Both the position numbers and the translations under genes were made by a program. Positions 1,535 through 33,712 of a DNA stretch of 34,559 nucleotides are shown here, in pieces. Under the pieces are notes generated by a model, which worked only from the letters and a program-made list of their open reading frames with translations, was not told the origin of the DNA and ran no database searches. This stretch comes from Candidatus Kerfeldbacteria bacterium (GTDB lineage Bacteria; Patescibacteriota; Patescibacteriia; JACPL01), in assembly GCA_016182525.1 (NCBI GenBank), contig JACPGL010000004.1, positions 1 through 34,559 of the forward strand, written 5' to 3'. Each line of letters begins with the position of its first letter. Positions within the stretch are counted from its first letter, which is position 1.

Positions 1535-1608
1535 GGGCGCTTAGCTCAGCTGGTTAGAGCGTCGCATTTACACTGCGAAGGCCGGGGGTCCGACTCCCTC
1601 AGCGCCCA
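1535..1608 (+). tRNA. tRNA-Val(TAC), no encoded CCA
   Basis: Acceptor GGGCGCT/AGCGCCC; anticodon arm TCGCA-TTTACAC-TGCGA. Confidence 0.95.
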
Positions 1609-1634
1609 CGAAGGGTGCAGAGATATACACGCGA

Positions 1635-1948
1635 GCCGGGGTAGCTCAGTGGTAGAGCACATGACTGAAGATTTTCGGTCCGTTCCGAAGCGATTCGGGA
1701 ATGAAAATTGGGTGAATTCGGGGAAGCCTACATCAAACGATACGGTAATCCCGAGCCAAGCCAAGAAGGGCCCGCGACTCGCGGAGGTTTCTTGGAAGGT
1801 GTAGAGACTAGCGAGATGAGTCCCGACAATATTCTCGCCCAGTGCGCCCAACCTCTTGCAGAAGAGGATGAGATAGTCCAATCCAAGAAGGAAACTTCTT
1901 GACCACAGGAAAATCATGGTGTCGTGAGTCCGATTCTCACCCCCGGCA
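1635..1948 (+). tRNA. tRNA-Phe(GAA) interrupted by a group I intron; exons 1635-1666 and 1909-1948
   Basis: Acceptor GCCGGGG/CCCCGGC; D stem GCTC/GAGC; anticodon stem CATGA/TCATG split by intron; spliced loop CTGAAAA. Confidence 0.92.
1667..1908 (+). ncRNA. Group I self-splicing intron (242 nt, no homing endonuclease ORF)
   Basis: IGS TTTTCGGTC pairs with exon GACT (P1, U.G) and exon GAAAA (P10); P3 TTGGGTG/CGCCCAA; P7 GACTA/TAGTC; P8 CCTCTT-gcag-AAGAGG; P9 CAAGAAG-GAAA-CTTCTTG; terminal G. Confidence 0.92.
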
Positions 1949-2634: not shown

Positions 2635-2707
2635 CGGGGATTGGCGCAGTTGGTAGCGCGCCGCGTTTGGGACGCGGAGGCCGCCGGTTCGAGTCCGGCA
2701 TCCCCGA
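2635..2707 (+). tRNA. tRNA-Pro(TGG), CCA encoded at 2708-2710
   Basis: Acceptor CGGGGAT/ATCCCCG; anticodon arm CCGCG-TTTGGGA-CGCGG; followed by CCA. Confidence 0.95.
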
Positions 2708-2730
2708 CCAGAACATTCCCACTCATAGTG

Positions 2731-23274: not shown

Positions 23275-24786
23275 TTATCCTAAACTTTTTCGGAGCTTGC
23301 CGGCGCGAAGCACGGCATCAGAAATATCGTCACCCGCCTGACGCAAAAAGTAAATGTCGGATGTGGTATTGCGATGCAAAAATTCGTGCGGTTCGCGCGG
23401 GCCAAGTTCGGTCGCAAAATACTCTTCCAAGAATTGAATGTCTTTTTGAATCGGTTTCCAGCGCTCATCGGCAATCGTCATCATCTCCAAATTTTCTTTG
23501 TTCAAGAATCGTCCGGCAAGTTTAATGTCATTCTCCATGTGTTCGTATGTCGCGCGCAGCACTTCGCGTTCGTCTTCTTTGAGTGAGCGGAGTGTGCGGC
23601 CAGTGCCGATGAGTTCCGGCGGAACACCAAGTGAATACATGGCGGCAGTAAACGTAATCGCGCGCGGGAATTCTTTTTTGCCGATCTTGCGCGCATACCC
23701 GAGCAGGCCAATATGCAACCGCCGTTCGCGTCGAGGCGGCACCGCAGACGACACCGCAAACATCGCCTCTGCAACTTTTTGTACTGACTGATGATACTGC
23801 GCCGTGCTTTTACGCACAATCTCGTGCAAAATTTTTCGGTGACGAACAGAAATGATGAGTGGTTCAGCTTGCGGCAGTTCGTTCGTCAAACGCGTGAGCG
23901 CATGTTTGACATGGGTCAAATCATAATCGTAGCGAAATGCAGATTGAATCGTGACCGTGCGCACACCGCGATACTCATTCAAAAACGCATCCATATTTTC
24001 TGGATTGCACCCACCGCGGAACGGGAGCGAACCGGTTCCAATAATCGGATACACATCAATCCTATTCTTCGCTGACCAGTCCGTAAGTTCAGACAGCGCC
24101 ACTTTGTTGCCAGCAACTGCCGCGATCATTCCGGAAATCAATGCCGGGTCGCTTCGCGCTAAAAACACACGGAGATATGGAATCTTTTTTCGAAATTTTT
24201 GCGAATGCGCATGCGTGTAGCTATTCAAGAGTTTGCGAATCCCGAACATCCCCTCCACGTCTTCGACCAGCGGAATGGCTTCGATGTGCCGAAAATCGCT
24301 CGTGCCACCGTTCGGGAAAAGGCGGTGCTTCACTTTGGCCAACTGCCCAAACGTCTCTTGAATGTGAATGAGCTGCGTAGCGGATTCGGTCATGGGCAAG
24401 ATCACTTCAAAGAGCGGCGGCGTGTGGATTTTTAAATCTTGCGCCATGTCAGCAGCGGTGAGCATGGCCATGAACGCGCGGGCAAGCGAGTAGCCTTTTT
24501 CTTGCCAGATGTTTGGGATGCGAAACGTCAAAAATTTGTCGCGGCCAAGAGACGTCTCCATAAAATACTCGTGATACTCCGAAAACAACCGCTCTACCAC
24601 TGCCTCATCCACGTACTTGCCTTCCCAGTCCCACATGTATTCGTCAACGTTCAATTCACTAAATGCCGCATACGCTTCTCGGACTTCTTCTTGCGCCGAG
24701 ATAAACCCATCACCATCGGTTTCCCAAAATGGGGCACTGGCGTTATCGGGATGTTGCGTTGCCATGGTGGCCGGAATGTGTCGCAT
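23275..24786 (-). CDS. ppcA: Phosphoenolpyruvate carboxylase, archaeal type
   Basis: IPATMATQHPDNA; YMWDWEGKYVDEAVVERLF; GTGSLPFRGGCNPEN; ~503 aa. Confidence 0.92.
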   Translation of the reverse strand: MRHIPATMATQHPDNASAPFWETDGDGFISAQEEVREAYAAFSELNVDEYMWDWEGKYVDEAVVERLFSEYHEYFMETSLGRDKFLTFRIPNIWQEKGYSLARAFMAMLTAADMAQDLKIHTPPLFEVILPMTESATQLIHIQETFGQLAKVKHRLFPNGGTSDFRHIEAIPLVEDVEGMFGIRKLLNSYTHAHSQKFRKKIPYLRVFLARSDPALISGMIAAVAGNKVALSELTDWSAKNRIDVYPIIGTGSLPFRGGCNPENMDAFLNEYRGVRTVTIQSAFRYDYDLTHVKHALTRLTNELPQAEPLIISVRHRKILHEIVRKSTAQYHQSVQKVAEAMFAVSSAVPPRRERRLHIGLLGYARKIGKKEFPRAITFTAAMYSLGVPPELIGTGRTLRSLKEDEREVLRATYEHMENDIKLAGRFLNKENLEMMTIADERWKPIQKDIQFLEEYFATELGPREPHEFLHRNTTSDIYFLRQAGDDISDAVLRAGKLRKSLG

Positions 24787-27259: not shown

Positions 27260-27919
27260 TCAACCTCCAAACGGAAACTCGGCAATTTTTCGTTGGCACG
27301 TATGATTTTCCCCAAGTTCATAGACGGCAATGCGATTCGCACGAAATGATGATCGCCGTTTGGGCAAATGAGAATATGCACGCTGTGCCTGATCCACGTC
27401 AAGAAAAATGCCAAGCGTGACATGAGGATTCCAAAAGCGGCCCACCATTGGACTACCATAGGTTTGGATCATCTGTTGTCGTTCTTCCTGTTGTGTTCGT
27501 AGCGGAAGACTCCACGTTTTCCGAACACGTTCTTTGATTTTTAGATGGTTGTAATCAAAATACCGAACGGTTCGACGAAGAACCGTGGAATGAAGTGCCG
27601 TGAGCCAGCGATTTTTATAAAGAGGAAGCGAAACCCACGATTTCAAATCTGCTATTCCAAGAATCGGAGCCGTACATCTTAATGTTTGCTCTGCACATTC
27701 CGAGGCAATATCCGATACCGTATGGAGAAACTCGTCCATGTCTGTTTTGCGAACCGGAACATGAAACAGAGTCACATGAGGAACATACGCCCGCTTTCCA
27801 AGCTTCCACCGAGCGCCGTACTTGTACAACATCCGACTCAATGCAATCACCTCATCCTGAAAATCTTCTGGAGGAATCAGCGCAACATCATAATAGTTGG
27901 GGTACATCTTTGGCTTCAT
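27260..27919 (-). CDS. 2H phosphoesterase (2'-5' RNA ligase-like), paralog A
   Basis: Two HVTL motifs (HVTLFHV, HVTLGIF) in ~219 aa. Confidence 0.8.
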   Translation of the reverse strand: MKPKMYPNYYDVALIPPEDFQDEVIALSRMLYKYGARWKLGKRAYVPHVTLFHVPVRKTDMDEFLHTVSDIASECAEQTLRCTAPILGIADLKSWVSLPLYKNRWLTALHSTVLRRTVRYFDYNHLKIKERVRKTWSLPLRTQQEERQQMIQTYGSPMVGRFWNPHVTLGIFLDVDQAQRAYSHLPKRRSSFRANRIAVYELGENHTCQRKIAEFPFGG

Positions 27920-28500: not shown

Positions 28501-28535
28501 ATGTACATACTAACGTACATCTCATTTCTTGTCAA
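28501..28535 (-). promoter_or_regulatory. TA promoter with palindromic operator over the -10 box
   Basis: Minus strand TTGACA-N17-TAGTAT; ATGTAC-N8-GTACAT at 28501-28520. Confidence 0.7.
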
Positions 28536-29211
28536 GAGTCTCTGTTGGAGACGAATCAGGTTTGACGTATCCTTGCCCAAACGGAAACTCGGCAATTTTT
28601 CGCTGGCACGTGTGATTCTCACCAAGCTCATACACGACAAGTCGATTTGCAGAAAAATCAAACCTCTTGAGAGGCAAATCGCGAAGAATCGCTTCGCGCA
28701 TTTCCGGATTTGCGACTCTCGCGAGTGAAATATGTGGTCGAAACGCTTCTTCAGCCAACGGAGTACCATACTTCTTGAATAGCTCCATGCCTTTTGGCGA
28801 AAACCTCACGAGATCGCTCCACAATTTCTTGCCCTCGCGCTGTTCGTACGCCCAATCGTAATGCGGAAGGAGTCGTTCAAGAACTTTTTCATGGAGCTGC
28901 ACAAGCCAGGGGATCTTTTGAACCATCAGTTGCAGGCCATTATGTCCAACAAGCTCAATATCGGTGGTGTGCAGGATCTGCGGTTCTTGAGCGCCAGCGA
29001 TGAGTTTCAATTCGCGCGAGACATTCTCAAGCAACGATGGAAGAACTGGGATATGATAAAGCGAAAGATGCGGGATATAGTGATCCCTGCCAAGTTTCCA
29101 CGGCGCACCATATTGAAAAATTTTTTCACTCAGCGCAATCGCATAGTCCATCACTTCTGGTGAAGGAGAAATCACGATGTCGTAATACTGAGGATGGATG
29201 GTTGGTTTCAT
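28522..29211 (-). CDS. 2H phosphoesterase, paralog B
   Basis: HLSLYHI and HISLARV motifs; C-terminal VYELGENHTCQRKIAEFPFG shared with paralog A. Confidence 0.78.
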   Translation of the reverse strand: MKPTIHPQYYDIVISPSPEVMDYAIALSEKIFQYGAPWKLGRDHYIPHLSLYHIPVLPSLLENVSRELKLIAGAQEPQILHTTDIELVGHNGLQLMVQKIPWLVQLHEKVLERLLPHYDWAYEQREGKKLWSDLVRFSPKGMELFKKYGTPLAEEAFRPHISLARVANPEMREAILRDLPLKRFDFSANRLVVYELGENHTCQRKIAEFPFGQGYVKPDSSPTETLDKK

Positions 29212-32822: not shown

Positions 32823-33712
32823 CTATTTCAACGTCGTGATCGGGCGGGACTGGAGGATGTAGAATTTTCCTTTTTCGCGCGCCCATTCGATATCGCACGG
32901 GAATTCGCGCGTTCAGCGACGGGAACAGCCTTCGTAATCGTTTTCTGTACGCCTTTGGCTTTGGTATTTTGCAAAATCATCTGCTGCTGCTCTCCAATAT
33001 TCACGTCCAAGAGCAAATCGTCTTCTTTATCCACGACATACGTATCGGGAGTCACCATGCCCGAGACCAGCGCCTCGCCAAGCCCATACGCCGCTTCAAT
33101 CACCATCTGGTTCGGGTCTTTGGTCACCGGATGCACCGTGAAACACACTCCAGCAATTTCCGAGTTCACCATTTTTTGTACGACCACCGCAACATGCACA
33201 TCCGCGTCGTGTAAATTTTTTTCAAACCGATACACGATGGCGCGAGGAGTGAACAGCGACATCCAACATTCTTTCACGGCGTCGAGTAGTTTGTCTTTGG
33301 TCACGTAAAGAAACGTATCGAGCTCGCCGGCCCAACTTGCGACATCCGAATCTTCCGCTGTAGCGCTTGACCGTACGGCAACATATGGGCTTTTGAGGCG
33401 CGTAAACTCCGCGAGCAATTCCTTCTCCAGATCTTTTGGCATTGGCGTATCGTGAATAACATCACGAATCACATTTGACGCGCGGTCAACCGAGTTCGTG
33501 TCATCCGGATTCACATTTTTGAGTTGCGACAGAATTTCCATCTCGAGATTATTCGCTTTCACAAAATCTTGGTAGCTTTGCGCGAGCACGACAAAACCTG
33601 GTGGCACCGAGATCTTGGCGCGCGCCATTTCCCCAAGCGATGCGCCTTTGCCACCGGCCTTTAACACATCTTTGGAACTGATCTTTGAAAACGGGAGAGT
33701 ATGTTTTGGCAT
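32823..33712 (-). pseudogene. PEP synthase/PPDK N-terminal domain, with apparent internal deletion and frameshift near its C-terminus
   Basis: GGKGASLGEM...VAVRSSATAEDSDVASWAGELDTFL; alternate frame gives TREFPCDIEWAREKGKFYILQSRPITTLK*. Confidence 0.75.

Follow-up and report, generated by a model that had tools for sequence, protein, structure and literature searches.

We found that the tRNA-Phe(GAA) gene in the 34,559-nt stretch of Candidatus Kerfeldbacteria DNA analysed here (the window) is split between U33 and G34 by a group I intron which, with a probability of about 96% by our estimate, is functional and is spliced out to leave a standard tRNA-Phe. The insertion, its structure, its boundaries and the selection acting on them are established here by computation.

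Organization of the split tRNA-Phe gene

All parts of the gene lie on the forward strand. The 5′ exon (1635-1666) covers tRNA positions 1-33, from the acceptor strand to C32-U33, and ends in CATGACT. It is followed by the 242-nt intron (1667-1908), which starts with GAAGATTTTCGGTCC and ends with CCACAG, the last base being the omega-G at 1908. The 3′ exon (1909-1948) starts with GAAAATCATGG and runs from G34, the first anticodon base, to A73; CCA is not encoded. The junction is thus C32-U33 | G34-A35-A36. ARAGORN recognized tRNA-Phe(gaa) in the joined exons (1635-1666 plus 1909-1948) and no tRNA in the unspliced stretch, which agrees with the original prediction, made from the letters of the DNA, that the host is tRNA-Phe(GAA) and becomes normal once joined. 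The gene is a member of a tRNA cluster, with tRNA-Leu(GAG) and an intact tRNA-Val(TAC) (the latter at 1535-1609, forward strand) upstream and intact tRNA-Pro(TGG) (2635-2710, forward strand) downstream. No convincing open reading frame was found within the 242 nt of the intron.

The group I intron that had been predicted at 1635-1948 was recovered by the Rfam covariance search: RF00028 matched positions 1657-1901 with 71.6 bits (gathering score 50 bits; E 1.8e-16), the match spanning the model from its first to its last position (1-253). The internal guide TTTTCGGTC (1672-1680, forward strand) pairs with both exons. Its GGTC forms P1 with GACT of the 5′ exon (1663-1666), leaving the wobble pair U1666.G1677 at the 5′ splice site, and its TTTTC forms a 5-bp P10 with GAAAA of the 3′ exon (1909-1913). 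The guide is followed, on the same strand, by the P2 hairpin (1681-1703), the 5′ strand of P3 (1708-1714), P4 and P5 (1718-1754), and P6 with its extensions (1755-1800; inner stem 1761-1766/1790-1795). The 5′ strand of P7 (GACTA, 1806-1810) pairs with TAGTC at 1874-1878, and the 3′ strand of P3 lies at 1845-1851, so that the P3-P9 catalytic core is present together with its P3/P7 pseudoknot, as are the U.G pair and the terminal omega-G expected of group I introns. The P8 hairpin (1852-1867; strands 1852-1857/1862-1867) and the P9 hairpin with a GAAA loop (1884-1901; strands 1884-1890/1895-1901) complete the structure. An extra hairpin of the P7.1 type, GCGAGA/TCTCGC (1811-1816/1833-1838 within 1811-1838) with a conserved loop, is inserted between P7 and the 3′ strand of P3. 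A helix in this place (P7.1) is a trait of subgroup IA.

Free-energy folding of the intron by itself gave a modest gain over shuffled sequences (z -2.28). Two minimum-free-energy pairings, guide to 1902-1904 and 1872-1874 to 1881-1883, were discarded, as they conflict with P1 and P7.

The same insertion in other genomes

We searched 85,462 species genomes for a tRNA-Phe 3′ half in which the universal U33 is replaced by G, the omega-G, and obtained 56 matching stretches. Of these, 38 also contain a Phe 5′ half that complements the 3′ half and has CU or UU as its last bases, the halves being 213-283 nt apart; the omega-G, as part of the search pattern, is built into these 38 homologues. Another 14 stretches were set aside because no matching 5′ half lay in reach. 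Four candidates, L065, L070, L081 and L083, were rejected as introns: they contain an intact tRNA-Phe whose 3′ half is present a second time within about 200-350 nt downstream, the arrangement that a mobile element leaves when it integrates at a tRNA (these come from Acidobacteriota, Thermoanaerobaculales, Omnitrophota and Terriglobia).

The insertion falls between positions 33 and 34 in the window gene and in all 38 homologues, in accord with the predicted insertion after U33. ARAGORN identified tRNA-Phe in 39 of these 39 genes when the exons were spliced and in none of the 39 when they were not. DNA similarity revealed four further split tRNA-Phe genes (L118, L119, L120 and L122) in genomes of the window's class (G024, G017, G018 and G019). 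The same junction is therefore found in 43 tRNA-Phe genes and in at least 42 genomes besides that of the window. Several of the 38 are titled just 'bacterium' and none bears the name of a lineage outside Patescibacteria; the names given are Moranbacteria, Falkowbacteria, Berkelbacteria, Nealsonbacteria, Buchananbacteria, Kuenenbacteria, Magasanikbacteria, Peregrinibacteria and Paceibacterota. By this relationship the organism of the window would be a Patescibacterium as well.

The introns themselves are diverse. The core of the window intron is at most 72% identical to those of its homologues (highest to L103). A subgroup of five (L066, L084, L093, L095 and L101, four of them named Berkelbacteria) lacks the P9 hairpin before the omega-G, and L097 and L122 carry another insert in place of the P7.1-type hairpin. 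Comparison with other CPR tRNA-Phe genes, proposed along with the original prediction, yielded intact genes besides the 38 and 4 that are split alike. Intact tRNA-Phe stands beside tRNA-Pro(TGG) and/or tRNA-Ile(GAT) or tRNA-Lys in the relatives L123, L124 and L126-L129, so the empty site exists in relatives. Among canonical GAAAATC tRNA-Phe genes in genomes of the phylum sample at least 90% complete, 5 were split at this site and 13 were intact, although the pattern used (KGAAAATC...) matched just 19 of 241 genomes and is too restrictive to give a count for the phylum as a whole.

Selection on the ribozyme and its guide

To score covariation, the 39 introns were aligned with MAFFT, and 68 pairs of the window structure, with P7 added, were compared with 500 shuffles and with a control in which the partners were slid. 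We observed 86.1% of cells paired, versus 74.4% in shuffles and at most 48.3% with slid partners; 45 of the 68 pairs changed on both sides, and the covariation score was 0.374 versus 0.167 in shuffles. None of the 500 shuffles reached any of the observed values. P7 is invariant across all 39 sequences, and P4-P6 and P8 covary. P3 is paired in 99.6% of cells, with changes on both sides in 4 of 7 pairs; the corresponding values are 97% and 6 of 6 pairs for the P6 inner stem (1761-1766/1790-1795), and 86.8% and 6 of 6 pairs for P8. The P7.1-type hairpin, put forward earlier as a mere possibility, is paired in 98.3% of cells, has both-sided changes in 4 of its 6 pairs, and occurs as 13 distinct fully paired stems among 38 introns.

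The pairing of the guide with the exons shows the same behaviour. The U.G pair at the 5′ splice site is present in 39 of 39 introns. A U in place of C at exon position 32 is accompanied by GATC in place of GGTC in the guide, so that GATT/GATC (five sequences on two separate tree branches) replaces GACT/GGTC; exon GGCT is matched by guide GGCC in L122. In L120 both pairings have changed: exon GCCT is accompanied by guide GGGC (P1), and 3′ exon GAAGA by guide TCTTT (P10). These compensatory changes indicate that the guide is kept by selection to pair with this exon junction in both P1 and P10. The original prediction had thus drawn the guide at 1672-1680, with its U.G pair and 5-bp P10, correctly. 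It had also been right about the terminal G, which is the omega-G at 1908, and about P3, P7, P8 and the GAAA-capped P9, all of which could be placed, P3 and P8 being covarying helices and P7 an invariant one.

Relation to tRNA-Asn introns

A second split tRNA is present in the genome of the window: a tRNA-Asn(GUU) gene (G000:C58, L010:1352-1976, minus strand) with a group I intron (73.6 bits) between U35 and U36. Within this intron lies an open reading frame of 114 aa (L010:1584-1928, minus strand), which by eye is HNH-like (CxxC and HH..CANCHREVH motifs) and gave no Pfam match. Similar HNH-like frames were seen in 4 of 57 relatives, 3 of these 4 being inside split tRNA-Asn genes. One such intron, L139, in the tRNA-Asn(GUU) of a class relative, is also placed at U35|U36 and joins the HNH-like frame with a Phe-type core and a P7.1 hairpin. 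The tRNA-Asn introns (L136, from the window's own genome, and L138-L140) resemble the Phe intron as group I introns of the anticodon loop, but differ from it in their site and in having a nuclease-like frame; the cores of L136, L138 and L140 are divergent.

A tree built from the intron cores placed the Patescibacteria Phe introns, which share one site, with two tRNA-Asn introns in a 45-row clade (support 100/100) apart from seven introns of the genome's own 23S rRNA gene. The tree gave the window intron no firm exact position, and L136 sits on a long branch with an unsure position. L139 and the Phe intron L118 form a group (96/84), a placement suggesting that the tRNA-Phe and tRNA-Asn sites have exchanged ribozyme cores. 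Derivation of the Phe intron from the 23S introns of its own genome was rejected, these being in the separate clade. That 23S gene (G000:C18:10897-15109, L009) contains eight group I intron matches, four of them above the Rfam threshold.

The intron could still be mobile, moved by the HNH-like nuclease of the tRNA-Asn introns, instead of being mainly inherited and immobile. The association of such a frame with a Phe-like core in L139, and the presence of a tRNA-Asn intron with the frame in the window's own genome, speak for such movement. However, no Phe intron among those examined is long enough to hold the frame, the expected target of the nuclease is the Asn site and not the Phe site, and the frame is without a Pfam match; we therefore regard present mobility as unlikely. 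It would in any case concern the spread of the intron and is compatible with the splicing proposed below. Since the Phe intron lacks a nuclease frame, it would persist by descent or by occasional transfer through the nuclease of another element or through recombination. The tRNA-Asn introns with the HNH-like frame provide a system in which the movement of group I introns among tRNA genes can be studied.

Probable need for splicing and proposed mechanism

No tRNA-Phe was found among the 27 intact tRNAs of the genome (79% complete, 63 contigs), and the T-arm of the split gene occurs there in a single copy, so splicing of this tRNA-Phe is probably essential. A second intact tRNA-Phe, which the original prediction had named as the finding that would count against it, was not seen in this 79% of the genome. 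At this completeness and with 63 contigs, an intact second gene could be absent from the assembly only. This leaves a small opening for the view that the intron is a decayed one in a tRNA-Phe pseudogene, no longer splicing, while another tRNA-Phe does the work. Such decay is nevertheless very improbable, given that no such gene was found and that the core helices, the guide and both exons are all intact and are kept by selection in 38 homologues. Splicing by proteins at a bulge-helix-bulge, or joining of a trans-split tRNA, with no ribozyme involved, would recall the anticodon-loop introns of archaeal and eukaryotic tRNAs but is scarcely credible, as the RF00028 match is full-length, P7 is invariant and the ribozyme helices covary, the tRNA halves are contiguous, and all relatives with informative names are bacterial.

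A functional ribozyme would act by the established group I mechanism, from which we infer both chemical steps. Pairing of the guide GGTC with the last four bases of the 5′ exon would place the conserved U33 in the U.G pair, and an external guanosine bound in P7 would attack after U33. The freed 3′-OH of U33 would then attack after the omega-G at 1908, while the guide TTTTC (P10) holds G34-A38. Ligation of the exons would give the standard tRNA-Phe and release the 242-nt ribozyme. The universally conserved U33 of the tRNA itself supplies the U needed at the 5′ splice site. The gene shows that a ribozyme can be required for an apparently essential tRNA of a reduced genome. The split gene also explains why tRNA-Phe is absent from the output of a standard tRNA finder, which bears on checks of genome completeness.

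Comparison with known tRNA introns

The Phe intron belongs to a known class of self-splicing introns. Bacterial tRNA group I introns have Leu(UAA), fMet, Ile and Arg tRNAs as their main hosts (PMC4033280, PMC5733544, PMC8450103). The original prediction had called Phe a less familiar host; it does differ from these reviewed hosts, but it is not an isolated oddity, since the lineage extends to at least 42 other genomes. According to one review, most bacterial tRNA group I introns are inserted at 37/38 (PMC4033280), directly 3′ of the anticodon; the window intron and its 38 homologues share the anticodon loop with these but are inserted at 33/34, and in another host tRNA. The Azoarcus and Synechococcus pre-tRNA introns are called IC3 in the title of a cited reference, whereas the Phe intron carries the P7.1-type hairpin, an IA trait. 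The introns that Tsurumaki et al. 2024 (PMC11270868) describe from CPR rRNA genes are of the same ribozyme class but differ in host gene and site.

Closest in host lineage, gene class and intron class are the tRNA introns reported from Patescibacteria. A passage of Lui et al. 2021 (PMC8172020) on circularised genomes, mostly CPR, relates that group I introns make tRNAs hard to detect, and the title of Nakagawa et al. 2025 (bioRxiv 10.1101/2025.07.03.662931; cited in PMC12641178) reports a novel tRNA insertion site in Patescibacteria; neither that passage nor that title states the host tRNA and position. Among the results read in our search of the open literature, none reported a group I intron in a bacterial tRNA-Phe gene. 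Patescibacteria tRNAs had been known to contain introns, and the parts that may be new are the U33|G34 site and the link to tRNA-Asn. It is conceivable, though we hold it only tentatively, that these introns make up an undescribed, Patescibacteria-wide, ORF-less and IA-like family specific to U33|G34 of tRNA-Phe(GAA) which swaps cores with the nuclease-encoding tRNA-Asn(GUU) introns; if this were true, the spread of an intron from tRNA to tRNA could be followed.

Other genes in the window

Two genes of the 2′-5′ RNA ligase superfamily (LigT-like) lie close together on the minus strand (27260-27919 and 28522-29211). Their proteins have a common C-terminal stretch, VYELGENHTCQRKIAEFPFG, which suggests that the pair arose by duplication. 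A gene for a phosphoenolpyruvate synthase/PPDK-like protein (32828-33712, minus strand) appears truncated or frameshifted, as its frame is open for the N-terminal ATP-binding part only. The minus strand also encodes, at 23275-24786, a phosphoenolpyruvate carboxylase of the PEPcase_2 family (E 1.7e-143), a type usually called archaeal.
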